Virus record (IMG/VR): IMGVR_UViG_3300046028_009709
Coordinates: 1 to 39,617 of that record
From: a virus
Strand: one strand, 5' to 3'
Length of the DNA: 39,617 bases
A program made the position numbers and the translations under genes. Every line of letters begins with the position of its first letter. Within the stretch, counting starts at the first letter, position 1. Shown here piece after piece: positions 4,768 through 32,744 of the stretch. The notes under the pieces were generated by a model. It was not told where the DNA came from. It saw nothing but the letters and a program-made list of their open reading frames with translations, and searched no databases.

Positions 4768-5700
4768 ATGACAAAAAAGATATTTTGGATAGACGGTGGT
4801 GCTGGTAGAGTAATCACCGCTATTCCTGCATTAATCAAATACGGTCGGCTGCATCCCAACAGCGAATGGGCTGTGTTGGTTGGCGCATGGGATTTCTTAT
4901 ACTGGGGTATTCCCGAGCTGCAAGATCGCACCTACAATCTTGATACAAAAGGTGTTTTTGACAACGTAGTCAAGAATGCTGATCAAATAGTAACCCCGGA
5001 GCCTTATCGTATCCCAGCATATTTTAGGCAAGAGATAAGTTTGGCTGAAGCTTTTGACAGGGAAATCAACCAAACTACAGATCACAGTGATTTATTGCCA
5101 CCACGATTGGCATTCAATCAACAAGAAACTCTCGTAGCCAAGAATACCATAGCTGATCTCAAAAGTGTAAGCAAAAAGAACAAAACAATTGTATTTCAAC
5201 CCTTTGGCCGTGGTGCCAAACTGGATCGTGCCACAGTGATTGACGAAGAAAGCAGAAGCTTAAGCTCAAACGACTATTTGAGCCTGAGCCGGCGTCTCAA
5301 TCAAAAATACAACATGATCTTTTTTGGCGAGCCTGACTTTCAATTGAAAGACGACAACTGGAGTGCCAAATACACTGCTGATTTAAGAGTTTGGTCAGCT
5401 CTAGTTGCCAACTCTGACTATTTTGTAGGATGTGACAGTGTAGGCCAGCATATTGCTAGAGCCTCTGGAGTACCAGGCACAGTAATTATTGGGAGTACGT
5501 TTCCCAAGAACACCAGCTATCCAGATTACTTTCAAATAATTGAAAAGCCTGCTGCTAGGAAATATAGTCCTATTCGTATTGCTGGTCTGGACGTAAATCT
5601 CAGCAATAGGCTGAATGAAGGCACAATGAAATTCTCAACCAAAGAACTAGACGACATCTATCAAAAGATTGTTGCAGATATTGAAAGGAAAACACGCTGA
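4768..5700 (+). CDS. GT9-like (heptosyltransferase-fold) glycosyltransferase
   Basis: A 310-residue product starting MTKKIFWIDGGAGRV. The ATG at 4768 has CGAGG seven bases upstream; the frame is open further back but without such a site. The opening glycine-rich loop, TIVFQPFGRG at mid-protein, and the C-terminal FVGCDSVGQHIARASGVPGTVIIGST segment match the GT9/ADP-heptose transferase plan, in which that last segment lines the donor site. It would work on a glycan in the host cytoplasm. Its stop overlaps the carbamoyltransferase start by one base, so the two are likely coupled and may act on the same glycan. The donor need not be heptose. Confidence 0.7.
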   Translation: MTKKIFWIDGGAGRVITAIPALIKYGRLHPNSEWAVLVGAWDFLYWGIPELQDRTYNLDTKGVFDNVVKNADQIVTPEPYRIPAYFRQEISLAEAFDREINQTTDHSDLLPPRLAFNQQETLVAKNTIADLKSVSKKNKTIVFQPFGRGAKLDRATVIDEESRSLSSNDYLSLSRRLNQKYNMIFFGEPDFQLKDDNWSAKYTADLRVWSALVANSDYFVGCDSVGQHIARASGVPGTVIIGSTFPKNTSYPDYFQIIEKPAARKYSPIRIAGLDVNLSNRLNEGTMKFSTKELDDIYQKIVADIERKTR

Positions 5701-7397
5701 TGAAAATAATGGCCATCAATCCCGGTCACAACAGCAGTGTGGCGCTTGTTGAAGACGGTAAGTTGCTGTTTTATAGCGAGGAAGAACGATGGAGTCGCCT
5801 AAAGTATGACGGTAATCCATTTAGAGCCATGCTATGGGTACTAACTAATCATTTGGTAGACCACTTGATCATTGGTGGGACCACCACTAATTGGGTTACT
5901 CTTCCTTGGACTAACGAGAATGCCTATGCTGCATTAGCTCGCAAATTCAGTCCTAATGTGCAAGTTACCCTAATGGGCCATCTACATCACTTGGGTCATG
6001 CAGCTAATGCCTTCTATGGCAGTGGTTTTGAAACAGCATGCGCCTTGGTCGTAGATGGGGCCGGAAGCTATGTGCAAGAAAGCATGGGAGAAGGACTACC
6101 ACTTACTGGGGGTTTTGAAACTGAAAGCATCTATCATTGCAGCTATCCACATGAGTTCAACGCAGTTTACAAAAGATACAGTGACGGTGCGGAAACCAGC
6201 CTCTACTACGACAACGGTATCCAAGAATTTGATAATAATGTTACTATTGTTAAGGCATACGAGAGTGTAAGTGATTATTTAGGATTTGGGGCTATTGAAG
6301 CTGGGAAGACCATGGGACTAGCTCCTTATGGCCAAGAAGACAGCAACATTCCTGCCTTTTTCATCAACAATAAAGGCAACAAGAACTTGTTGATTCCTCG
6401 CTATCCCAGCGGCGCACACATTGACGAGAATAGATTTCCTTACTTGCGTAGATACACACAACCAAGTGACTGGCATAATAACTTTGAATTAGTGCGAGAT
6501 CAAGACAAGAATCTAGCCTACCATGTGCAGAAAGAAACTGAAGAGCAGATGGTGAAGTTGATTGAGCGTGCTATTGACATTACTGGAGAAAATCGCATTG
6601 TAATCAGTGGTGGTTATGCACTTAACTGTGTTGCCAACTACAAATATCTAGAACGTTTCCCTAATATTGAGTTTTACATTGATCCCATTGCACATGATGG
6701 TGGAACAGCCATTGGTTTAGCTCGGCATGCTTATTATGTTCTGAGCCAAGATACTACACCTCAACCACTCTCTCATCTCTACTTGAGTGTGTTGCCAGAC
6801 TATAATCAGATTGAAACCACTATTGCTTCTGTTGAAGGTATCAGCATGAGAGACACATCACCTGCTGAAGTGGCACTACTGCTGGCAGAAGGCAATATTG
6901 TGGCTTTGTTTCAAGGCGCTAGTGAAGGTGGGCCTCGTGCACTAGGCAACAGAAGCATTCTTTTTGATCCTCGAGTAATCAACGGCAAGGATATTGTTAA
7001 CCAAGTTAAAAATCGTGAATGGTTCCGCCCTTTTGCTGCGAGTGTGATGGCAGAACATGCAAATGACTGGTTTGACATGCGCAATCTCAATGAAAGCCCT
7101 TACATGATGTATGCTGTAAATGTGAAGGAAAGCCAAAGAGAGTTGATTCCTGCAGTTACACATGTGGATGGCACCTGCAGAGTACAAACTGTCAGCAGCG
7201 AGCAAAACTTGCATTTGTATCAGCTGCTAGATGCTTTTCGGCAACAAACCGAAACACCGTTGCTGTTTAACACTAGTTTCAATCTAGCTGGGCAGCCATT
7301 GGTGGAAACACTGGTAGACGCCTTGATAACAATCTTCAACTGTGATATCCACTACCTGTATCTTCCCGATCTGGGAATGTTGGTATGCAAACAGTAA
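5700..7397 (+). CDS. O-carbamoyltransferase (NodU/CmcH family)
   Basis: A 565-residue, full-length member of the family that transfers a carbamoyl group from carbamoyl phosphate, via carbamoyl-AMP, to a hydroxyl. The N-terminal kinase-like domain shows NPGHNSSVAL (residues 7-16), a metal-binding HLHHLGH (94-100), VVDGAGSY (117-124) and GGYALNC (304-310). The C-terminal carbamoyl-transfer domain shows ALFQGASEGGPRALGNRSI (about 402-420) and NTSFNLAGQPLV. Known members decorate Nod factors and antibiotics, and some phage members are reported to act on 5-hydroxymethylcytosine in DNA. Here it lies among glycosyltransferases and overlaps GT9-like and sulfotransferase-like frames, so a glycan substrate seems likelier. 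The family call is firm; the substrate is open. Confidence 0.9.
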   Translation: MKIMAINPGHNSSVALVEDGKLLFYSEEERWSRLKYDGNPFRAMLWVLTNHLVDHLIIGGTTTNWVTLPWTNENAYAALARKFSPNVQVTLMGHLHHLGHAANAFYGSGFETACALVVDGAGSYVQESMGEGLPLTGGFETESIYHCSYPHEFNAVYKRYSDGAETSLYYDNGIQEFDNNVTIVKAYESVSDYLGFGAIEAGKTMGLAPYGQEDSNIPAFFINNKGNKNLLIPRYPSGAHIDENRFPYLRRYTQPSDWHNNFELVRDQDKNLAYHVQKETEEQMVKLIERAIDITGENRIVISGGYALNCVANYKYLERFPNIEFYIDPIAHDGGTAIGLARHAYYVLSQDTTPQPLSHLYLSVLPDYNQIETTIASVEGISMRDTSPAEVALLLAEGNIVALFQGASEGGPRALGNRSILFDPRVINGKDIVNQVKNREWFRPFAASVMAEHANDWFDMRNLNESPYMMYAVNVKESQRELIPAVTHVDGTCRVQTVSSEQNLHLYQLLDAFRQQTETPLLFNTSFNLAGQPLVETLVDALITIFNCDIHYLYLPDLGMLVCKQ

Positions 7398-15571: not shown

Positions 15572-16453
15572 TTAGGCGTAACTTCCAAATAAATGCAATT
15601 GCATATTAAAGACGAATCCGTTCTGGACACAATAACGAGCAGCGTGTTCGTGATTGGCTTGAGCAGTTTGCATATTGATAAGCCCTGGCGTCCAAAAACT
15701 CACAACTTCATCCACAATACTGCGTTCTTCAAGACTAATTTGATTTTTCTCAGCTCGAATTTGCTTGCTTTTCTGCGGTTCATGGTTGTAAATGTTCATG
15801 GGACTTACAAACACTGGCTTACCAGTTTGGTCCCGCCAGTTGTGTGCCCAGTCAGGGACATTATTGTAAGGAGTATCAGAATCTGCACTCATTACAAATT
15901 TCAAACAGTCTGCACGGGCCAGCATTGCTTTGTTTGGTTCAAGATACTTGACAGGTTTGCCATTTTTTTCACTGCACTTGGGGCTTACAACTAATGTTGT
16001 CTCACGCGGAATGTTTTGTACAATCAGTCCATTGCTTTCAATCTGTGTTTTTGCAAACTGGGTGTTCATGTGTTCCAAAAATGGCACGATGTTTTTTTGT
16101 AGCATGGGCTCACCACCTGTTAGTACCAGCACCATGTTGCGCTTTTTCACAGGGTCACTGCCCGGTCCGCCATACACTACGTCTGCCCAAAGAGGCACAT
16201 TTCCTGAAAAACTATCTGAGATGCTTTTCGCAATTTTAAAATCAATCTCGTCAATAGTCATCCAGTCACCATCATCGAAGAAGGTATCACAAAAACTGCA
16301 AGCCAGCTGGCATTTGGCCAGTCGCACAAACACAGCTGGCTCTCCTCGATAAGGACCTTCACCCTGAAAAGTTGTGAAAATACTTGTTACAAAAAGTTTA
16401 TCTCCAGCATTTTCAAAATAAGATTGTCCTACTATAGTATTTTTACCAAACAT
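15572..16453 (-). CDS. queE: 7-carboxy-7-deazaguanine synthase (radical SAM)
   Basis: A 293-residue QueE-type radical SAM enzyme. It converts 6-carboxytetrahydropterin to 7-carboxy-7-deazaguanine (CDG). TTFQGEGPYRGEPAVFVRL (about 27-46) is the family N-terminus; C48, C52 and C55 form the CxxxCxxC iron-sulphur motif; TGGEPMLQ at 112-119 binds SAM. It is longer than the usual ~220 residues because of insertions around 80-110 and in the C-terminal half. The ATG at 16453 is chosen for GGAGG five bases upstream. FolE, a QueD-like protein and DpdA lie within 10 kb on the same strand, so its product probably goes into DNA rather than tRNA. Confidence 0.9.
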   Translation of the reverse strand: MFGKNTIVGQSYFENAGDKLFVTSIFTTFQGEGPYRGEPAVFVRLAKCQLACSFCDTFFDDGDWMTIDEIDFKIAKSISDSFSGNVPLWADVVYGGPGSDPVKKRNMVLVLTGGEPMLQKNIVPFLEHMNTQFAKTQIESNGLIVQNIPRETTLVVSPKCSEKNGKPVKYLEPNKAMLARADCLKFVMSADSDTPYNNVPDWAHNWRDQTGKPVFVSPMNIYNHEPQKSKQIRAEKNQISLEERSIVDEVVSFWTPGLINMQTAQANHEHAARYCVQNGFVFNMQLHLFGSYA

Positions 16454-16543
16454 ATATGCCTCCTGAGTGTTAAGATAAGTTTGTAGCAATCAAACATCAG
16501 CGTCAAGCTCTAGATGTCAACGCTGTCCAAAAACAAACATGTG

Positions 16544-16560: not shown

Positions 16561-17439
16561 TCAAGTTCTAGAGGTGTGTATTTTGTGAGGGGCGTATAGA
16601 CCACAAGTAGATAGCTGTGCGCTGGTAATAACATATTCCTTAAATTTTTCTAAATTATTGATTACATATTCAGGATAGTAGTCATCAATAATTACTGGTT
16701 CAAAATACTGTCCTGGCCTCTCATGAGATGTTTTGTTCTGTACAAACTTGTTTATGTCGAAGTTATCAATAATTTCGGGTACATTTGCTTCGGTGTGTGA
16801 AAAACTCTGCAGTTTCAACACTCCGTGCGCATCATCACCTATTGAACACCAGTGCCAGCCGCCATGGGAAATAAAAGATACATTTTCAGGTAGATGCTGC
16901 CACGGGAAGGTAAAGGATCTTTCGGTTTGTGGATCGGTAAACACGCTTGTTCGAGTTACTATGATATTTGGGCTAGCATCCCAGTCAATTCCATGATTAC
17001 CTTTGACGCGCATGTAATTCAATTTATAAATGTACGTAGGACAAAATAAAATCCATCTTGAATATTGGGTATCTTGTCTGCATTGCTGGATACAAGAGGG
17101 CCGAGGAATTTCGTCAGCATCACTAGTAATTACTAGATCATTTGGCTGAATATCCCATAGGCCACGTGCAAGACTTTTGCGTTGATGCCGCTCACGAGAC
17201 CATGCGTCGTCTCTAGTTTGGCCCTCGGGCATGTCGGTTACTACTATGTGTCTAATTTTTTCCTTATATTTTGCGAAAAGATGTTGATTATCAGCGAAGT
17301 ATAAGGGTTTTGATTGTCCACTATGCGTGTATGGTGATTCTGCAATTATAAAATAGTCCACTGTATCCCATAAGGTTTCAAGTCTTAACTCAAGAAGGGT
17401 AAGTTCATTAAAAAATGTAAAGCAGTCATAAATTTTCAT
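16561..17439 (-). CDS. GT17-family glycosyltransferase
   Basis: A 292-residue protein matching the GT17 (Glyco_transf_17) pattern throughout. KIYDCFTFFNELTLLELRLETL and DYFIIAESPYTHSG at the N-terminus are followed by LVITSDADEIPRP (about 101-113) with the DADE metal/nucleotide site, then FISHGGWHWCS near residue 190. Eukaryotic members add bisecting N-acetylglucosamine, but the many bacterial and phage members have unknown acceptors. The ATG at 17439 has AGGAGC upstream. It is the last gene of a four-gene glycan island inserted between queE and folE. Confidence 0.85.
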   Translation of the reverse strand: MKIYDCFTFFNELTLLELRLETLWDTVDYFIIAESPYTHSGQSKPLYFADNQHLFAKYKEKIRHIVVTDMPEGQTRDDAWSRERHQRKSLARGLWDIQPNDLVITSDADEIPRPSCIQQCRQDTQYSRWILFCPTYIYKLNYMRVKGNHGIDWDASPNIIVTRTSVFTDPQTERSFTFPWQHLPENVSFISHGGWHWCSIGDDAHGVLKLQSFSHTEANVPEIIDNFDINKFVQNKTSHERPGQYFEPVIIDDYYPEYVINNLEKFKEYVITSAQLSTCGLYAPHKIHTSRT

Positions 17440-21047: not shown

Positions 21048-21728
21048 TTAGAGAGAGGTCAAGTCAACCATCTTCATAAATTCAGCACGAGCACTGGGAT
21101 CCTGTTTGAACGCACCACCCAGCTTGCTGGTAACTGTGCTGCTGCAATCATCTTCAACGCCACGATGACTTACGCAATAGTGCTTGCCGTGAATGACGAC
21201 AGCAATGCTATCGGTTTCCAGGATATATTCCATTGCATGAAAGATCTGCTCAGTCAAACGCTCTTGAATTTGTGGTCGGCGGCTAAAGTATTCGACAATT
21301 CGATTGATCTTGCTTAGGCCCAATACCTTTTCTTTGGGGATATAAGCCACAGTTGCTACACCATCAATCACAATGAAGTGATGTTCGCAGGCACTTTTGA
21401 CAGTGACATTTCGTTCACACACCATTTCATCATAGCCCATTTTGTTGGCAACAGTGGTGCACTTGGGGAAAGCTTCCCAATCAAGACCCCAAAAAAGTTC
21501 CTGGATAAACATGCGAGCCACTCGTGTCGGCGTTTCAGCCAAACTATCATCTGACAGATCCAAGCCCATTGTTTCCATGATGTCCTTGAACTTGCGTTCA
21601 ATAATATCAATTTTGTCTGTGCGGCTTAGGGAATTTTCCACTGTTGGGGTTTCAACCCCTTTGGAAACTAGGTATTCATGTACTTTGCGACCCAGTTCAG
21701 GATCACATTTTGTGCGATTATAGCTCAT
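21048..21728 (-). CDS. folE: GTP cyclohydrolase I
   Basis: A 226-residue type I GTP cyclohydrolase. It opens the GTP imidazole ring to give 7,8-dihydroneopterin triphosphate, the first step towards both folate and 7-deazaguanines. Zinc ligands are visible: C114 and H117 in VKSACEHHF, and C185 in HGKHYCVSHRG. LGLSKINRIVEYFSRRPQIQERLTEQI (137-163) is the family core, and TPTRVARM is the N-terminal signature. I start it at ATG 21728 after an AAAGGAAAG site; the frame runs on to 21764. An exact TATAAATA lies 76 bases upstream. With the QueD-like protein, QueE and DpdA it gives a DNA-modification route. Confidence 0.93.
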   Translation of the reverse strand: MSYNRTKCDPELGRKVHEYLVSKGVETPTVENSLSRTDKIDIIERKFKDIMETMGLDLSDDSLAETPTRVARMFIQELFWGLDWEAFPKCTTVANKMGYDEMVCERNVTVKSACEHHFIVIDGVATVAYIPKEKVLGLSKINRIVEYFSRRPQIQERLTEQIFHAMEYILETDSIAVVIHGKHYCVSHRGVEDDCSSTVTSKLGGAFKQDPSARAEFMKMVDLTSL

Positions 21729-21803
21729 ATCTTTCCTTTCAAAGCATCTGTCGTTTATGCACAACGGGTGTTTCCACCAATTTGCTACCGTAATGTAGCA
21801 GAC

Positions 21804-25186: not shown

Positions 25187-25414
25187 CTACACCAATTGAT
25201 TTACTGTGCAATATTTGAGGCCACATTGTGCACTACAAAACTCAATACGGGTGGTCCCCATGTCACGGAAATATTCTGGCCAAATGTCACTTTGAGTATG
25301 GACTACTGCCCCATCATTGTCACAAACGTATTTCCTGTAAGGCTCACAACTTGTGCCGCATGCAACACATTTGAGAGTGGGAAAATTTGATGGAATGGTT
25401 TTTTTATGTTTCAT
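25187..25414 (-). CDS. Small cysteine-rich zinc-binding protein
   Basis: A 75-residue protein with seven cysteines: C16, C19, C23 and C31 near the N-terminus, and C60, C64 and C69 near the C-terminus (IEFCSAQCGLKYC). The CxxC and CxxxC pairs suggest one or two zinc ribbons of the TRASH/FYVE-like small type, often nucleic-acid or protein binding. The start at ATG 25414 overlaps the stop of the Agt-like gene by four bases, so it is the last gene of the CYTH-plcP-agt unit. I cannot assign a role; the coupling may be only for expression. Confidence 0.65.
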   Translation of the reverse strand: MKHKKTIPSNFPTLKCVACGTSCEPYRKYVCDNDGAVVHTQSDIWPEYFRDMGTTRIEFCSAQCGLKYCTVNQLV

Positions 25415-26403
25415 TTGGGTACCAGCGTATCAACAAAGATATCAGTTGTTTTTTCCCAACTCCATCGCTTGCTGCCTTCAAAAACAGTTTTTCGACTCAA
25501 TGTCAAACATTGCGAGATAGCTGTCTGAATATCATCATTTAGCACACCAGTCACCCCATCATCTACAACATCTATTGGACCCTGCACAGGAAATGCTGCA
25601 ACAGGAGTACCAACACTCATGCTTTCAATCATAACCAACCCAAACGTGTCACTTTTGCTGGTGAAAACAAAGCAGTCAGCATTTTGGAACTGCTGTACCA
25701 GTTGCTTACCGCTCAATTGCCCAGTAAATGTAACCCAGGGGTATTTGTTCTGTAACCGCTTGAGATCAGGGCCATCACCAACACACACTAGATTGTATTT
25801 TTCTGCTGATAGGCTACAAAACACCTCTAAATTTTTCTCAGCACTGATTCGACCAACACTCAACAATGTGGGCTTGGTGTCACACTTGCGGTCATTAAAT
25901 TGAAACAGTTGGGTGTTGACTCCCCGTGACCATGTGATGGCTTGAGACAGGCCAAGCGACACCATCTCTCTTTGCATAGTAGGAGTGTTGACCAAAGTTG
26001 CTGCACTATTTTGATGAAACCATTTGAGATACCTCATGGTTTTGAGGGCCGGCACACCAAATTTTTCCTTGAGATAGTGATCCCATCTTGTGTGAAAGCT
26101 AGTTGTGTAGCGCCAATTTTTGTTTTGAAAAAATTGCCTAGCAGTTAAGCCCAGCACACCTTCTGTACAAATGTGCAAGTGTGTGGGTTCATACGCCTCT
26201 ATTCTTTTTTTCAAATTCCAAAAATTCAATGGTATGCGAGCACCTGGATATACCAATGCAGGCATAGACATCATTTGATCAGGAGTGAAGTGGATGAGAT
26301 TCTGTATGCCTCGAGAAAACATTTGTTTTTTCACTGCATTCATTGTAGTTACAACACCATTCACTTGGTCTTGGCAGTTGTCATCAACAATCACAAGTCT
26401 CAT
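25411..26403 (-). CDS. agt: Agt-like glycolipid glycosyltransferase (GT4)
   Basis: A 330-residue GT4 enzyme. The N-terminus MRLVIVDDNCQDQVNGVVTTM and HICTEGVLGLTARQF, the TSFHTRWDHYL stretch and WSRGVNTQLF at about 158-168 match the SqdX/MgtA/Agt group that glycosylates diacylglycerol. SKSDTFGLVMIESMSVGTPVAAFPV (about 251-275) is the donor site, with Asp replacing the first Glu of E-x7-E, as is usual in this group. In alphaproteobacteria and marine bacteria Agt uses diacylglycerol released by PlcP to make mono- or glucuronosyl-diacylglycerol when phosphate is scarce. Here it overlaps the PlcP-like gene by four bases. The pairing makes the call much stronger than the GT alone. The sugar donor is unknown. 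Confidence 0.75.
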   Translation of the reverse strand: MRLVIVDDNCQDQVNGVVTTMNAVKKQMFSRGIQNLIHFTPDQMMSMPALVYPGARIPLNFWNLKKRIEAYEPTHLHICTEGVLGLTARQFFQNKNWRYTTSFHTRWDHYLKEKFGVPALKTMRYLKWFHQNSAATLVNTPTMQREMVSLGLSQAITWSRGVNTQLFQFNDRKCDTKPTLLSVGRISAEKNLEVFCSLSAEKYNLVCVGDGPDLKRLQNKYPWVTFTGQLSGKQLVQQFQNADCFVFTSKSDTFGLVMIESMSVGTPVAAFPVQGPIDVVDDGVTGVLNDDIQTAISQCLTLSRKTVFEGSKRWSWEKTTDIFVDTLVPK

Positions 26404-27188
26404 TCAAGGCTCCATGTGTTTTTCGTCATCATACTTTTTGTTTCAGTGTCGTAAACCAGTAGCTCTATTGAGCCATCAAAGTTTTCAACCAAAGCTGACA
26501 CAGTTTCACAAAAATCACCACAATTCATATACACAAACCCATCCTCAAACGTTTTCAACGATGGAGAATGAATATGGCCACAAATTACTCCATGAAATGC
26601 TTCGTCCCGAGCATATTGTACTACATGTTGCTCGTATTTGGTGATAAATGCAACAGCTTGTTTTGTGTTTGTTTTAAGGTATGAACTTAGACTCCAATAA
26701 TCTTTTCCAAAAAACCGGCGCATATGATTCAAATGTGTGTTCAACCACAGTAAAAAACTGTGTGCTTTGTCGCCCATCAAGCTAAGCCATTTGTGATATC
26801 GAATTACCCCGTCAAACAAATCACCGTGTGTTACCAAAAATCTCTGCCCATGAACAGAGTGATGTTCAAAGGCATTGCCCAGCTCAATGTTGCCAAACGT
26901 GTGTATGTCTGGAATCCATGCTCGAAGGTACTCATCATGATTACCTAAAACATATCTCACCTGTGTGCCTCTCTTGGCCGCAGTGAGAATTCTTCGAACC
27001 ACATTGCTATGTGTTTGTGGCCAGAATTTGCTGCTTTTCAATTTCCACAAATCAAATATGTCACCAACGAGGTATAGATTTTGGCAGGAGTTGTGTTTCA
27101 AAAACTCCACAAGTAGCTCAGCTTGGCATGCACGACTACCAAGATGCGTATCGCTTATGAAGATGCTACGATATTTGCTGTTTGGCAT
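26400..27188 (-). CDS. plcP: PlcP-like metallophosphoesterase (phospholipase C for lipid remodelling)
   Basis: A 262-residue calcineurin-fold phosphoesterase with all metal motifs: FISDTHLGSRACQAELL (D13, H15), LVGDIFD (D43), GNHDE (82-86), VTHGDLFD (H121) and GHIH (204-207). Such proteins are often labelled UDP-2,3-diacylglucosamine hydrolase, but the THLGSRACQAELL, WPQTHSNVV and INTHLN/YWSLS..LK patterns are those of the PlcP group, which cuts phospholipid head groups to give diacylglycerol under phosphate starvation. The adjacent, overlapping Agt-like gene uses that product. No membrane helix is seen; it would act at the inner membrane surface. LpxH cannot be excluded without a tree. Confidence 0.75.
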   Translation of the reverse strand: MPNSKYRSIFISDTHLGSRACQAELLVEFLKHNSCQNLYLVGDIFDLWKLKSSKFWPQTHSNVVRRILTAAKRGTQVRYVLGNHDEYLRAWIPDIHTFGNIELGNAFEHHSVHGQRFLVTHGDLFDGVIRYHKWLSLMGDKAHSFLLWLNTHLNHMRRFFGKDYWSLSSYLKTNTKQAVAFITKYEQHVVQYARDEAFHGVICGHIHSPSLKTFEDGFVYMNCGDFCETVSALVENFDGSIELLVYDTETKSMMTKNTWSLE

Positions 27189-27718
27189 TATAGACCTTTC
27201 AGGTTCATCAAAACTTTTTTATAGTTACCAAGATTCTTGTTCTGAAACCTCTTGTCGTTTGCGTCAATCCAGCGCCAAAAATTCTCCTGTAAGAGAGGAT
27301 GAACCTCAGGAAGGTCTAACTCAAATTCTGGCATTTCCACTTCTGCCATGCTCAAATAAATGTCGCCGCTTTTGGGATTTTTGAAAAAATCCACGTCCCA
27401 ACAGTTCAACCCTTCTTGAAACTTGCAGCGAGTTTTGTGGATTACGGGTTTAGCTATCAAGAAAAGTTTGTGATAGTCGTGGATTGAAATTTCTGTTTCG
27501 ATCTCCACTGTATTTCCAGTAACCTTGGTTTTGAAAGTGAACCAATGCGTTTCTGCATCACCATTGTGTGGTACCACATGTCGAATTCTTGCACTTTTGT
27601 TGATATAACCCTGTGTTATTTCAAAGGTTTGCACAAGGGGTTGGCGTTTCAAATGTCGTAGTAGCTCCTGCGGGCTTTCAGGTCGCAGGAGCATTTTGCG
27701 TTCGTGTTCAACTGGCAC
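27188..27718 (-). CDS. CYTH-domain protein (triphosphate tunnel enzyme fold)
   Basis: A 176-residue CYTH protein. The E-x-E-x-K motif appears as VEHERKMLL (E4, E6, K8), followed by EITQGYINKSARIRHVV, a THWFTFKTK strand, VEIETEIS, and YLSMAEVEMPEF, the acidic and basic residues that line the triphosphate tunnel. Members hydrolyse inorganic triphosphate, thiamine triphosphate or act as adenylate cyclases. I start at GTG 27718 with GGAG upstream; the frame runs to a GTG at 27742 that lies inside the clamp terminator hairpin. Its stop overlaps the plcP start by one base. A link to phosphate metabolism would fit plcP next door but is inference. Confidence 0.75.
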   Translation of the reverse strand: MPVEHERKMLLRPESPQELLRHLKRQPLVQTFEITQGYINKSARIRHVVPHNGDAETHWFTFKTKVTGNTVEIETEISIHDYHKLFLIAKPVIHKTRCKFQEGLNCWDVDFFKNPKSGDIYLSMAEVEMPEFELDLPEVHPLLQENFWRWIDANDKRFQNKNLGNYKKVLMNLKGL

Positions 27719-27729
27719 AAGCAGTCTCC

Positions 27730-27755
27730 AAAAAATGGGCACTGTGGGGTGCCCA
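27730..27755 (-). terminator. Rho-independent terminator after the sliding clamp gene
   Basis: On the - strand: TGGGCAC, loop CCCACA, GTGCCCA, then six Ts. It directly follows the clamp stop (27766), and the CYTH ribosome-binding site GGAG starts right after the T-run, so the CYTH-plcP-agt unit depends on read-through past it or an unseen promoter. Confidence 0.8.
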
Positions 27756-27765
27756 CTGTGTCCTA

Positions 27766-28518
27766 TTAGCGCAGCTTTGCTGGCAGCACATACTTGTATG
27801 TGGTAATGCCAGTATTGAGCTTGAGCTGAATAGCACCCTTGACGGAGAAGCTCATTTCAGCATCAGCACCATCAACCAGCTTCAAAAGTGCAGATACAAG
27901 AGCAATAGGCCATTTGTGTGAGCTTTCAAACTCGCCCGTAACCCCTGTAGCAAACACTACACCGCCGCGTTGAGTAGCTGCACCTTCATCTCCAATGAAA
28001 AACTTGAGGTTACCATCAACTGTCTTGGGAATGAAGTATTGCTCGTAGCTGCTGAGACTGCCAGCAGCCCAATTGAACTGTTGAATGTTGCTTTTGCTGG
28101 GTTTGATTTTAACGTCCCACTGTGGTTCCATGTACTTGGGTTGATCTGGGACCATGTTTTTTGCTAGGAAGCGATAATTGATGAAACTATTGCTCTTGTT
28201 TGTGTAGTGCATCTCAGTGGGAACGTCTACACCTTCACGCTCAGTAAGCACTAGTTCAAGCTTGCTGTCTTTGTGGGCAAACTCGGAATCATTCACAATG
28301 CTGTTGAGCAAGCCTAGATTGGCAAGGCCAAATTCTCCAGCCCAGCCGTCCACAGGATGCAAAGTTTCAGCCTTGAGAATCACTTGTTTGTCTTTGTCAA
28401 TAGCCTCAATGGTGCTGGTTTTAGCGCCACCAGACACCTTGATTTTTTCGTAAAAGCCAGTACTGATCACGTTCTTTGCAAGATCAGAAATTGCATCCTT
28501 AATAGCTGTTGCTGTCAT
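27766..28518 (-). CDS. 45: T4-type sliding clamp (DNA polymerase processivity factor)
   Basis: A 250-residue protein on the gp45 plan. The trimeric ring tethers DNA polymerase to DNA, and in T4 also activates late transcription. MTATAIKDAISDLAKNV is the N-terminal helix, FFIGDEGAATQRGGVVFATGVTGEF (about 174-198) the conserved C-terminal strand segment, and SFINYRFLAKNMV another core region. The ATG at 28518 has GGGAG upstream; TTG at 28524 overlaps the preceding stop and is less likely. A strong terminator follows. The presence of a gp45-type clamp fits the TATAAATA late promoters, which need it. Confidence 0.85.
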   Translation of the reverse strand: MTATAIKDAISDLAKNVISTGFYEKIKVSGGAKTSTIEAIDKDKQVILKAETLHPVDGWAGEFGLANLGLLNSIVNDSEFAHKDSKLELVLTEREGVDVPTEMHYTNKSNSFINYRFLAKNMVPDQPKYMEPQWDVKIKPSKSNIQQFNWAAGSLSSYEQYFIPKTVDGNLKFFIGDEGAATQRGGVVFATGVTGEFESSHKWPIALVSALLKLVDGADAEMSFSVKGAIQLKLNTGITTYKYVLPAKLR

Positions 28519-28520
28519 TT

Positions 28521-28724
28521 TCAATAACTCCCTTTGTTACCCATTTTGCGTTGTGTTGTCTCTTCGTCAACCAGGATGGCATTTTGTTTCAAATCATCAT
28601 CAGTCCAACCCATCATGTTCTTGAGTATGAACCTTCGACTTAGCCAAGGTGGTGCACTGTTCAATGCTTCAAATAAAGTTTTGAGTTCAGTAGGCTCATA
28701 TATTCGAGTTTTTTGGGCTTTCAT
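28521..28724 (-). CDS. Small hypothetical protein upstream of the clamp
   Basis: A 67-residue protein starting MKAQKTRIYEPTELKTLFEALNSA at ATG 28724 and ending two bases before the clamp ATG. The pattern SRRFILKNMMGWTDDDLKQNAILVDEE faintly recalls the C-terminal tail of T4-like portal proteins, but at this length I do not rely on it. Probably helical throughout. Its placement may help couple clamp translation. No function assigned. Confidence 0.5.
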   Translation of the reverse strand: MKAQKTRIYEPTELKTLFEALNSAPPWLSRRFILKNMMGWTDDDLKQNAILVDEETTQRKMGNKGSY

Positions 28725-29822: not shown

Positions 29823-32579
29823 TCAAAAACTAAACATGCTGTCAAAAGTTTCGTTGTTTTTGGCATCTTCAAGATTCCAGTGCAATACACCCAACAAGTT
29901 TTCCAGTTTCTTGTCCAAAATTGTGGCCTCCATAAGAGCGTTGTCAAAAGGCATAGACTTGAACCAATCAGGAAGATACAGTTGATCTACAGGGTATGCA
30001 ACAGATGTCATACCCAAAGGGTTTGATCTCAGCTTACAGACAATCACCTTTTGCCCGTCTTGAATTCGCATTGATCCATAATCGTTGTAGATCTCACACA
30101 ATAGGTTCCAGTTTAGGCTCGCAAGGACATGGCCCGGAATAGTTTTTCTTTTCCCAGTGTCTTTGTTGAGGTCAACGCTTTCCTGAGCTTTCTTAATCAT
30201 GCCATATTGAGTAAGGTTATTCACCCTTTTGGGGCTGCCTTTTGCCCAGCTGGGCCATTGGCTGAACTCTGTGCGGAACTCCTTGATGCGCGTGAAAATG
30301 CTGTCTTTGTCAACCTCAGTCAAAACCAAAGTTAAAATCTCACTCAAGAAGTCCTGGACTGGTTTTGGTGTATCACTTCTCTTGAGATCAAGCCCCATAA
30401 CTTTGATCTCACCTGGCTTGCCATCTACATCCTTTCGCTTGCCTTCTTTGTCATAGATCATCACAGCATACCGCTTCTTGGTAATGAACAATCCATGGCT
30501 TGCTACTAGTTCACGACCAGCTTTGATCACACTTCTGGATTCAGGTACATTGAATGCCTGTTTCATAAATCCAGGAAAGCTTTGGTTGGTGATATCTGCA
30601 ACTTGATCATACAATTGCACCACTGCTTCACGACTCCAATCAAAGCTTTTGAAGTCTTCAAGCTGGCTCATTACTGGATATGCGCTAAAATAAATGCTGT
30701 CGGTGTCGCCATATATGACAGCATCACCTTTGTAGTGATATTTCCCTGATATTACCTCATTGATCTTACTACCCATGTGTTTGACGATACATCTACCTGT
30801 TAAAGTAGTACTTTGTGCAATACGGTTGTCAAACCACGATGAGCTAGAATTTCCGATAGCTCCATAAAGTGAATTTAGCAAAATTTTCTTAATCAACTGC
30901 CTTCTGTCATAAAAATCAGCTTTTTCTTGATACTCACTCTTCTTAGAGGGATTAGGTTCTTCATCAGCTTTTTTGAAACATGCTTTGGCTTCTGCCTGCA
31001 ACTCCTTTCTCTCACCATACCAGCGAGCCAGCAAGCCTGGTACCACACCCTCCTTGTTGAGATCAAAAATGGTGCCATTGGCACTGAGAGTCATTTGCTT
31101 TTTGGGATTTTCAAAAATCCATTGATACAGTTCGTCAGCACTGAGTTCCACAGTGGTACCGTCTTCAAAGTCCACAGTCAGCATAACCATTTCCCGATTC
31201 ATCACTTGGTTATACTCAATAATGCCAAACATCTCGTTCCAACTGTCAGCAAAAGTGCGCTTTTCCTTTTGCATCCTGTGTTGAATCAAACGATCATTAC
31301 CCACAGGGCGGATTTGCCCCACTACTGTTTCCTTGCTCATGTTCAAGCTACGAATAGCACTGGGATATAGACTGTTGATGTCTACGCCGCCAATCCACTT
31401 GTGCATGCCTTCAACTGGGTCAGCCACATATGCACCAGCAATACCAGTGGGCTCAATGTCTTCACCCTGATCATCTTTCATGATTTCAGGATTGTCTCTA
31501 CGTCGAGTAGGAACACACAAGCCAAGATCATGTGCTTCGTTAGTAATGGCATTGTCAATAAGCTGTACTGACCCCATTGTTGTTTGGATCAACACTCCGT
31601 TTGTATGTGCTAGATCATTGCTTAGATCAATGAATTTCAGCTTGCGATCAATTTTCACCAACAGCATAACGTCTTGCCTGTTATAGGCAATGAACTTTTC
31701 AAAGTCTTCGTTATAGAGCTTGTCTAAGCTGCCTTCGTAAGCTATCTTCTTGTCGCCCACTTCATACTCGCCCACAAAGTCCAGTCGATAACTGTGCATC
31801 TCGTGATAGGTGTGCTTGCGGTACAGTTGCAGATAGTCAAGATGGACTCTGCCCACTAGATCAAAAGTAATAGTGGGCTTGCCATAGCTTTCATACTCCC
31901 TTTTCTTGGGAAATTTGTTCCAGAGACACAGCCTTTTAGTGTGCTCCTTACTCAAAATTTGAATGATACGATTGTGCAAATAAGGAATATCATAACCCTC
32001 TGAATTCCAACCTGTGAGAACATCTGCATCCTCAATGAGGGTGAGAAACACATCCAATAGCTCAGTTTCATTGCTACACAGCACAGTGTCTTCAAATTTG
32101 TCCACAACTGCTGATGCTTGCTCTACTGTGAGTGTTTTGGGTTTGAGGACAAGAGTAAAGTTTTTGCCCAGCCAACTCAAATATACAGATACTGCTGTAA
32201 TGGGATTGAACGCCTCGTCAGTTGACGAGAAGCCCCGATCAGGATCAAAATCAGTTTCCAAGTCAAAAAACGCCACATGCAACTGTGGACTTGCTGTATT
32301 TTTGTAATGTTCATAAAAACAACGGAAAATGGGATTGCTATCACTTTCATATTGTTGTGTTTTTGGAACCAAGCGACACTCTCTTTGAAACTCTTCCCAA
32401 CGATTGGTTTCAAATTTATCCAGCCGTTCACCATAAATGCTAGTGTATTTTCCACGCTCACTGGGAAAATACATTACGTATTTGCTGGGATATGTGTTGT
32501 AGACTCGTTTGTGGTTTACACGCTCCACAACATGAATACAGTGTTTGTCTTTCTCCAAAATAGCATCAACATACGTCAT
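29823..32579 (-). CDS. 43: DNA polymerase, family B, T4 gp43 type
   Basis: A 918-residue replicative polymerase, the full T4-type length. The 3'-5' exonuclease has FFDLETDFD (DLE at about 106-108), TGWNSEGYDIPYL and AYNRQDV. The polymerase has motif A GGVDINSLYPS (about 397-407), motif B KKILLNSLYGAIG (564-576) and motif C VIYGDTDS (621-628). The C-terminus ends in FDSMFSF, the short peptide that docks on the sliding clamp. I start at ATG 32579 with GGAG six bases upstream; an ATG four codons earlier has no such site. It works with the clamp and RNase H found here. No break or intein is seen. Confidence 0.95.
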   Translation of the reverse strand: MTYVDAILEKDKHCIHVVERVNHKRVYNTYPSKYVMYFPSERGKYTSIYGERLDKFETNRWEEFQRECRLVPKTQQYESDSNPIFRCFYEHYKNTASPQLHVAFFDLETDFDPDRGFSSTDEAFNPITAVSVYLSWLGKNFTLVLKPKTLTVEQASAVVDKFEDTVLCSNETELLDVFLTLIEDADVLTGWNSEGYDIPYLHNRIIQILSKEHTKRLCLWNKFPKKREYESYGKPTITFDLVGRVHLDYLQLYRKHTYHEMHSYRLDFVGEYEVGDKKIAYEGSLDKLYNEDFEKFIAYNRQDVMLLVKIDRKLKFIDLSNDLAHTNGVLIQTTMGSVQLIDNAITNEAHDLGLCVPTRRRDNPEIMKDDQGEDIEPTGIAGAYVADPVEGMHKWIGGVDINSLYPSAIRSLNMSKETVVGQIRPVGNDRLIQHRMQKEKRTFADSWNEMFGIIEYNQVMNREMVMLTVDFEDGTTVELSADELYQWIFENPKKQMTLSANGTIFDLNKEGVVPGLLARWYGERKELQAEAKACFKKADEEPNPSKKSEYQEKADFYDRRQLIKKILLNSLYGAIGNSSSSWFDNRIAQSTTLTGRCIVKHMGSKINEVISGKYHYKGDAVIYGDTDSIYFSAYPVMSQLEDFKSFDWSREAVVQLYDQVADITNQSFPGFMKQAFNVPESRSVIKAGRELVASHGLFITKKRYAVMIYDKEGKRKDVDGKPGEIKVMGLDLKRSDTPKPVQDFLSEILTLVLTEVDKDSIFTRIKEFRTEFSQWPSWAKGSPKRVNNLTQYGMIKKAQESVDLNKDTGKRKTIPGHVLASLNWNLLCEIYNDYGSMRIQDGQKVIVCKLRSNPLGMTSVAYPVDQLYLPDWFKSMPFDNALMEATILDKKLENLLGVLHWNLEDAKNNETFDSMFSF

Positions 32580-32744
32580 CCAAAACTCCATAATCCATAT
32601 AAATTCAACCCTGTATAAAACAACATCATTACAGCGAGTAATAGATTCTTACGCAAAATACTGCTGATGGTCAAGGCTACACTGCCAAACAACCAAAACA
32701 AATACAATGTGCTCAAAGGTAATATTTGAAAGGCTTAAACGGCG

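Follow-up and report, generated by a model that had tools for sequence, protein, structure and literature searches.

A phage-borne PlcP–Agt-type gene pair as a putative module of membrane lipid remodelling

The gene pair in the window

The IMG/VR virus record IMGVR_UViG_3300046028_009709 (39,617 bp, analysed over its whole length and called the window below) carries two overlapping genes whose predicted products are a PlcP-type metallophosphoesterase and an Agt-type glycosyltransferase (GT) of family GT4. The roles of both families have been established experimentally in bacteria, as the first-pass annotation of this DNA had assumed: for PlcP through deletion of the gene from Phaeobacter MED193 followed by complementation, and for the SAR11 Agt through expression in E. 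coli, which yielded detectable glycolipids, as described in PMC4796936; PlcP and Agt are described in Pseudomonas as well (PMC8528852). The annotation had also reported an overlapping pair at 25411-27188, and both genes are indeed present and intact there, PlcP first and then the Agt-type GT:

26400-27188, minus strand: open reading frame (ORF) for a PlcP-type metallophosphoesterase of 262 amino acids, a predicted phospholipase C acting on phospholipids
25411-26403, minus strand: ORF for an Agt/GTcp-type GT4 glycosyltransferase of 330 amino acids, a predicted diacylglycerol glycosyltransferase
26400-26403, minus strand: overlap of the PlcP stop and the GT start, 4 nucleotides (nt), ATGA

The ATGA overlap makes translational coupling of PlcP and GT likely. 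Against a relative 89-92% identical, the ratio of nonsynonymous to synonymous changes (dN/dS) is 0.03 for PlcP, whose dS of 2.3 approaches saturation, while the GT has a ratio of 0.09. These low values indicate that both genes are under purifying selection and are maintained.

Identity of the two enzymes

The esterase matches the Pfam families Metallophos_2 (4.7e-10) and Metallophos (1.8e-8). All metal-site columns that were checked (D13, H15, D43, N83, H84, D85, H121, D123, H205 and H207) are occupied as in bacterial PlcP-type proteins, in agreement with the full set of PlcP-type motifs first noted in this gene. The window protein is 44-50% identical to the proteins of the best 80 out of at least 591 bacterial loci, with Pelagibacteraceae at the top. 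LpxH is a member of the same metallophosphoesterase superfamily and the closest solved fold, but differs from the window esterase in its GNRD motif, its position in the tree and its substrate. The window esterase has GNHD instead, as do 127 of 128 PlcP-type sequences of the viral set (the other has GNHE; L019, which is probably cellular, belongs to this set) and 80/80 bacterial ones, whereas GNRD was found in 9/9 LpxH proteins, eight of them above the family cut-off; the use of GNHD as a mark of the PlcP type is a comparison made here and has no published definition. A search with TIGR01854 found both an LpxH and a low-scoring PlcP-type paralogue in seven of 20 bacterial genomes (G052, G055, G056, G058, G062, G068 and G069), LpxH being above the cut-off in six of them and just below it in G069, at 181.7 bits.

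In a mixture-model tree LpxH splits from the PlcP-type proteins at 100/100 on a very long branch. The references in this tree are bacterial PlcP-type proteins, including Pelagibacteraceae ones encoded beside Agt; the PlcPs of MED193 and S. meliloti are not among them. Viral and bacterial rows split at 100/99, with the exception of L009, which goes with Methylococcaceae (86/51). The LpxH branch measures 5 changes per column and attaches beside the long window branch; LpxH is too distant to serve as a root, and we therefore use the viral/bacterial split and not the rooted order within PlcP. In a quick PlcP tree, where LpxH is likewise set apart with full support, the cyanophage S-SRM01 falls outside and L019 is basal to the viral rows.

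The esterase could instead be an LpxH-like enzyme of lipid A metabolism and its partner a transferase for lipopolysaccharide or other surface glycans. The names of phage homologues point this way: the PlcP-type proteins of the pelagiphage Mosig EXVC030M and of S-SRM01 (Kyanoviridae), 48% and 37% identical to that of the window, are called UDP-2,3-diacylglucosamine hydrolase/diphosphatase in GenBank. So does structure, since the solved fold nearest to the AlphaFold model of the esterase (predicted local distance difference test, pLDDT, 84) is LpxH (5b49, E 1.6e-10), and LpxH accounts for nine of the ten PDB sequences that the family profile matches. The fold match is loose, with a template modelling score of about 0.55, and indicates membership of the superfamily only. 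The LpxH models themselves score the window esterase at 47.3 bits (cut-off 134) and 37.3 bits (cut-off 190.35). We rejected an LpxH identity on these scores, far under the cut-offs, on GNHD in place of GNRD and on the separate long branch; with the GT in the Agt clade (below), the lipid A reading as a whole becomes extremely unlikely.

The GT matches Glycos_transf_1 (4.5e-23) and Glyco_transf_4 (2.3e-11). We compared it with the SAR11 enzyme GTcp, analysed by mutation, whose functional residues include an unusual catalytic Asp256 (PMC8231724). Thirteen of the 14 mutated GTcp residues that were compared are identical in the window GT (H104, D252, G16, G82, G85, R160, R185, K190, T253, F254, G255, E260 and W316). 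The one exception is Thr162, replaced by Ser, and Ser also occurs there in 24 of 49 bacterial Agts; the SAR11 protein L181 is identical to GTcp at all 14 positions. D252 of the window corresponds to D256 of GTcp, so that the His104-Asp dyad is present, with Asp in place of the usual GT4 Glu. This position is Asp in 48/49 bacterial Agts and Glu in 6/6 other GT4s. The UDP-sugar motifs GRISAEKN and FTSKSDTFG depart from GRVAXEKN and FPSXTDTFG by two changes each; the residues within these motifs that were mutated in GTcp are kept.

A mixture-model tree of 71 rows, including 30 viral GTs and six other GT4s (DNA glucosyltransferases left out), placed 30/30 viral Agts in one clade (100/97). Together with six SAR11-side bacterial Agts (four from Pelagibacteraceae, one other alphaproteobacterial and one gammaproteobacterial) they form a clade of 36 (99/95), within which the exact sister of the viral clade is ambiguous (94/63). 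The six other GT4s stand apart at 100/100 and the window GT falls within the bacterial Agt diversity, to which it is about 33-41% identical. Its AlphaFold model (pLDDT 93) matches GT-B fold enzymes, including BshA and MshA. The phylogenetic comparison that the first-pass annotation had proposed thus separates the esterase from true LpxH and the GT from the non-lipid GT4s, and the assignment of the GT to the diacylglycerol-glycosylating group is well in accordance with its clade and its GTcp residues. Taken together, sequence comparison makes it likely that the phage pair has PlcP and Agt chemistry. L009 is a possible mosaic pair, with a PlcP placed weakly with Methylococcaceae and an Agt in the viral clade.

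Carriers, recurrence and genomic context

The window encodes a T4-type DNA polymerase (665 bits) as well as tail-fibre, tail-assembly and virion families, and these tail and virion families identify it as a phage. Within the window gp23 stays below threshold and no terminase was found. A relative of 328,603 bp (G018), 98.2% identical to the window over 12.7 kb, carries gp23 (319 bits), TerL and PstS. We counted T4 hallmarks and PstS in 50 pair-bearing records, hand-chosen and mostly longer contigs, from about 160 IMG/VR loci. Among these records are the window, its near-identical relatives L102, L103, L104, L105 and L107, the close L106 and the near-duplicates G003 and G022, and the 50 do not therefore represent independent lineages throughout. 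Related contigs presumably come from lakes or seas, judging by their IMG sample numbers. Neither the window's G+C content (43%) nor the nearness of viral Agts to those of SAR11 settles the host.

Mis-sorted bacterial DNA would be another explanation for such contigs. At least one of three T4 hallmarks was found in only 24/50 records: gp23 above cut-off in ten (two at 28 bits), TerL (PF03237) in ten and the T4-type polymerase in 21, and in 14 cellular control genomes the polymerase family occurred in five, TerL in six and gp23 in none. Two phage-labelled sequences also look cellular, L019 (MT836169), whose translations read as tyrosyl-tRNA synthetase- and polyphosphate kinase-like ORFs, and L020 (CAKLQH020000017), with Prc, NagZ, Ndk and RodZ annotations. 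On the other side, the window is clearly a phage, gp23 and terminase occur together in 8/50 records including the 328-kb relative, and the viral GTs form their own clade. Ribosomal protein S8 was found in 0/50 genomes of a set of 48 pair-bearing records plus Mosig and S-SRM01, against 14/14 controls. A bacterial origin is contradicted for the window and at least eight contigs, and as a general explanation is barely conceivable.

The pairing itself is real, as first proposed, and recurs in many viral contigs. Scans of IMG/VR gave at least 568 confirmed PlcPs among at least 600 candidates and 157 GT relatives (best 80 kept, with 58 distinct GTs), and a bacterial scan at least 591 confirmed PlcPs of at least 593; the best 80 were kept for the PlcP scans as well, and all viral and bacterial sequences were picked by similarity to the query family. 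PlcP lies upstream within 2 kb in 78/80 GT-selected viral loci, within 200 nt in 66 of them, and the two loci without it start at a contig edge. Among PlcP-selected loci, the GT lies within 2 kb in 35/80 viral ones and in 43/80 bacterial ones, the latter serving as controls; a diacylglycerol glycosyltransferase gene beside PlcP is frequent in bacteria, though not universal. Removal of duplicates by the last 150 residues left 128 distinct viral PlcPs, about half of which had been selected by GT4, a source of bias in this set; 83 of them are followed on the same strand by a GT4. Distances among PlcPs correlate with those among GTs over 49 viral loci (Mantel r 0.60) and over 36 bacterial loci (r 0.75), in both cases with 0/2000 permutations as high.

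A GT2 of about 240 amino acids (e.g. L031 6910-7632) lies downstream in 27 of the 45 viral PlcPs lacking Agt. It is within 200 nt of PlcP in 26 and at 681 nt, with an ORF between, in the last, and GT4 and GT2 occur together at 0/128 loci. This looks like a swap of partner. A RimK-like ATP-grasp gene was also seen close downstream of PlcP in L179 (5102-5992) and ten further viral loci, at a median offset of 897 nt from the PlcP start; ten of these 11 loci also have a GT4.

Phosphate-related genes are found beside the pair in some relatives. PstS (PF12849) is present in 7/50 pair-bearing records and adjoins the pair in six of these, at 149-899 nt on the same strand (G003, G004, G013, G022, G027 and G038), G003 and G022 being 99.97% identical over 11.4 kb; in G018 it is about 167 kb away. 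Five of six non-duplicate records thus have PstS within 2 kb, for which the chance is about 4e-6 under uniform placement and with the 2-kb window picked after seeing the data. Each cluster of neighbouring genes (GT2, PhoH, NrdA, NrdB, desaturase, PstS and RimK) takes its name from a single representative that was scanned. At distances of up to about 3.5 kb from the 128 viral PlcPs, PstS was found at 9 loci or more (a lower bound, as its cluster misses at least the G003-type PstS found by profile), PhoH at 13 and ribonucleotide reductase at 21. The PstS near the PlcP of L062 reaches 398 bits with the PstS equivalog model, and L108, the window's next relative, has an ORF of the PhoH cluster two genes upstream of its PlcP. 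Mosig has a gene of the PstS family (142.9 bits, under the 206.6 cut-off) in divergent orientation beside PlcP. A fatty acid desaturase cluster, by its representative, occurs near 14/128 viral PlcPs (e.g. L040 9178-9882), a second gene of membrane lipids at these loci.

Further genes of the window are the following:

27188-27742, minus strand: CYTH-like ORF, a weak sub-threshold match; its stop overlaps the PlcP start (TAATG)
27766-28524, minus strand: phage protein PHROG 12062, upstream neighbour of the CYTH-like ORF
29823-32591, minus strand: T4-type family B DNA polymerase (phrog_262, E 2.8e-199), placing the pair near replication genes
5700-7397: Nol-like carbamoyltransferase, a further sugar-modifying gene
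16561-17439: GT17 glycosyltransferase, a further sugar-modifying gene
15572-16489: QueE-like radical SAM protein, below NCBIfam cut-offs
21048-21764: GTP cyclohydrolase FolE, above cut-off

The CYTH-like ORF, PlcP and GT are three genes head-to-tail, and the first likely belongs to the same operon as the pair. It matches PF01928 at E 3.4e-4 (20.9 bits, cut-off 23.2) and has no PDB sequence match up to E 1. Among the neighbours of the 128 viral PlcPs it was seen only in L101 and L106, and tblastn found it in L102-L107 and not in L023, that is, in the window's near relatives only. The sequence EHERK near its start resembles the ExExK motif, and the product could be a triphosphate-hydrolysing enzyme. 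Elsewhere in the window the QueE-like protein and FolE suggest 7-deazaguanine synthesis, perhaps for DNA modification.

The position near the DNA polymerase raises the alternative of a GT that modifies DNA or protein of the phage and an esterase with nucleotides or nucleic acid as its substrate, their pairing being an accident of the replication module. PHROG matches of the esterase do include nuclease families, but these are weak and cover the N-terminal third only (residues 3-89). The pairing recurs in many loci and the GT groups with Agt, in a tree without DNA glucosyltransferases. The weak matches and the Agt clade led us to judge a DNA glucosyltransferase/nuclease pair unlikely, and the alternative in its full form is highly unlikely.

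A proposed role in phosphorus supply

We think the pair likely to be a phage-encoded module of membrane lipid remodelling. The gene identities, catalytic residues, overlap, conservation of the pair, viral clade and phosphate-gene neighbourhood in some relatives are observed directly; the substrates, the activity in infection and the benefit are inferred. PlcP would hydrolyse phospholipids of the host, to judge by its homologues phosphatidylglycerol or phosphatidylethanolamine, and yield diacylglycerol together with the phosphorylated headgroup. Agt, coupled to PlcP, would add a sugar to the diacylglycerol; homology suggests glucose or glucuronic acid, with a UDP-sugar as the donor. The mass of membrane lipid would be kept while lipid-bound phosphorus would be freed into the cell. 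The likeliest benefit would be phosphorus to replicate a phage genome of very large size where phosphate is scarce in the water, and an altered envelope may be a second effect.

Bacteria starved of phosphate use such an enzyme pair to exchange membrane phospholipids for sugar lipids. In 'Ca. Pelagibacter' HTCC7211 (SAR11), as in other Proteobacteria, the operon is arranged like the pair of the window, with PlcP upstream, Agt directly downstream and the same catalytic residues. Unlike the bacterial operon, the pair of the window is phage-borne and without a Pho box signal, and some phage relatives carry a GT2 instead of Agt. Mosig and S-SRM01 differ from the window in having no Agt-type gene in the stretch examined around their PlcP. 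Phages are rich in phosphorus, and some carry PstS, which binds phosphate for import. Phage PstS and PhoH, whose names link them to the supply of phosphate or to its lack, resemble the pair in being phage-borne and are its neighbours in some contigs; the pair would differ from PstS in releasing phosphate from the host's own membrane.

Several observations weigh against this interpretation. The support for the module comes from sequence comparison, and the esterase model is poor at residues 126-141 and 171-180. At the catalytic position the 83 other viral GTs have Asp in 35 and Glu in 48. The change D256E cost GTcp more than 90% of its activity (PMC8231724), and part of the viral clade may therefore use another donor or acceptor. 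In 6/6 non-Agt GT4s the residues that contact diacylglycerol, R163 and W320, occur as well, as does the majority of the donor-site residues, which leaves only the Asp and the tree to discriminate Agt. Neither GT lies near 18/128 viral PlcPs, 15 of which have more than 1 kb of sequence downstream. PstS was not found in 43/50 pair-bearing records including the window, most of them fragments. Pho boxes show no excess in the window, with 1 match where 5.7 would be expected, and the score upstream of viral plcP, at the 121 loci with enough upstream sequence, is marginal, with a mean of 9.25 against 8.99 at random places; phages may use other promoters.

The pair could also remodel the envelope for a reason other than phosphorus, such as a change of charge or receptors against other phages, a membrane kept intact until lysis or resistance to host defence. 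The other sugar-modifying genes of the window (GT17, the Nol-like carbamoyltransferase and further GTs) and the desaturase near 14/128 viral PlcPs are in accordance with such a role, and lipid remodelling is said to affect phage adsorption in unpublished data mentioned in a review (PMC9804370). Against it, PstS adjoins the pair in six of the seven records that have it and PhoH or ribonucleotide reductase lies near other viral PlcPs, neighbours that point to phosphorus and nucleotides; as to defence, none of the three genes, the CYTH-like ORF included, matches a PADLOC model at E up to 0.01. We regard an envelope role of this kind as rather unlikely. That the pair is used in infection to free phosphorus is favoured by the neighbourhood and seems to us somewhat more probable than its opposite.

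The first-pass annotation had considered the pair undescribed in phages. This stands for the pair, as no report of plcP or of PlcP-Agt as phage genes was found in the open-access full text of PMC (subscription papers and preprints lie outside it), but a PlcP-type gene alone is already present in Mosig EXVC030M and S-SRM01. The main text of PMC4796936 does not contain the words phage or virus, and the announcement of Mosig does not mention the PlcP-type gene in the part covered (PMC7892664). The word plcP is likewise absent from the main text of two surveys, of pelagimyophages and of jumbo phages from the sea, and of a catalogue of auxiliary genes from the ocean (PMC7029224, PMC9123017, PMC11360552). 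A viral-fraction metatranscriptome from Lake Baikal reports one 'lpxH, UDP-2,3-diacylglucosamine hydrolase' among auxiliary genes (PMC9611531), an unconfirmed candidate that may be a misnamed PlcP.

More broadly, a lineage of large aquatic phages may mine the phosphorus of host membranes, with PlcP and an Agt-type GT4 or an unrelated GT2 for glycolipid refill, sometimes beside PstS, PhoH, ribonucleotide reductase or desaturase, a reading for and against which we find the arguments evenly poised. The separate clade of the viral Agts would then mean that the module has long been kept in viruses. With Mosig a cultivated phage carrying the PlcP half exists. If our hypothesis were correct, infection would draw on a new source of phosphorus, the membrane lipids of the host, and the glycolipids of lakes and seas, which are read as a sign of phosphate-starved cells, could also arise by way of viruses.

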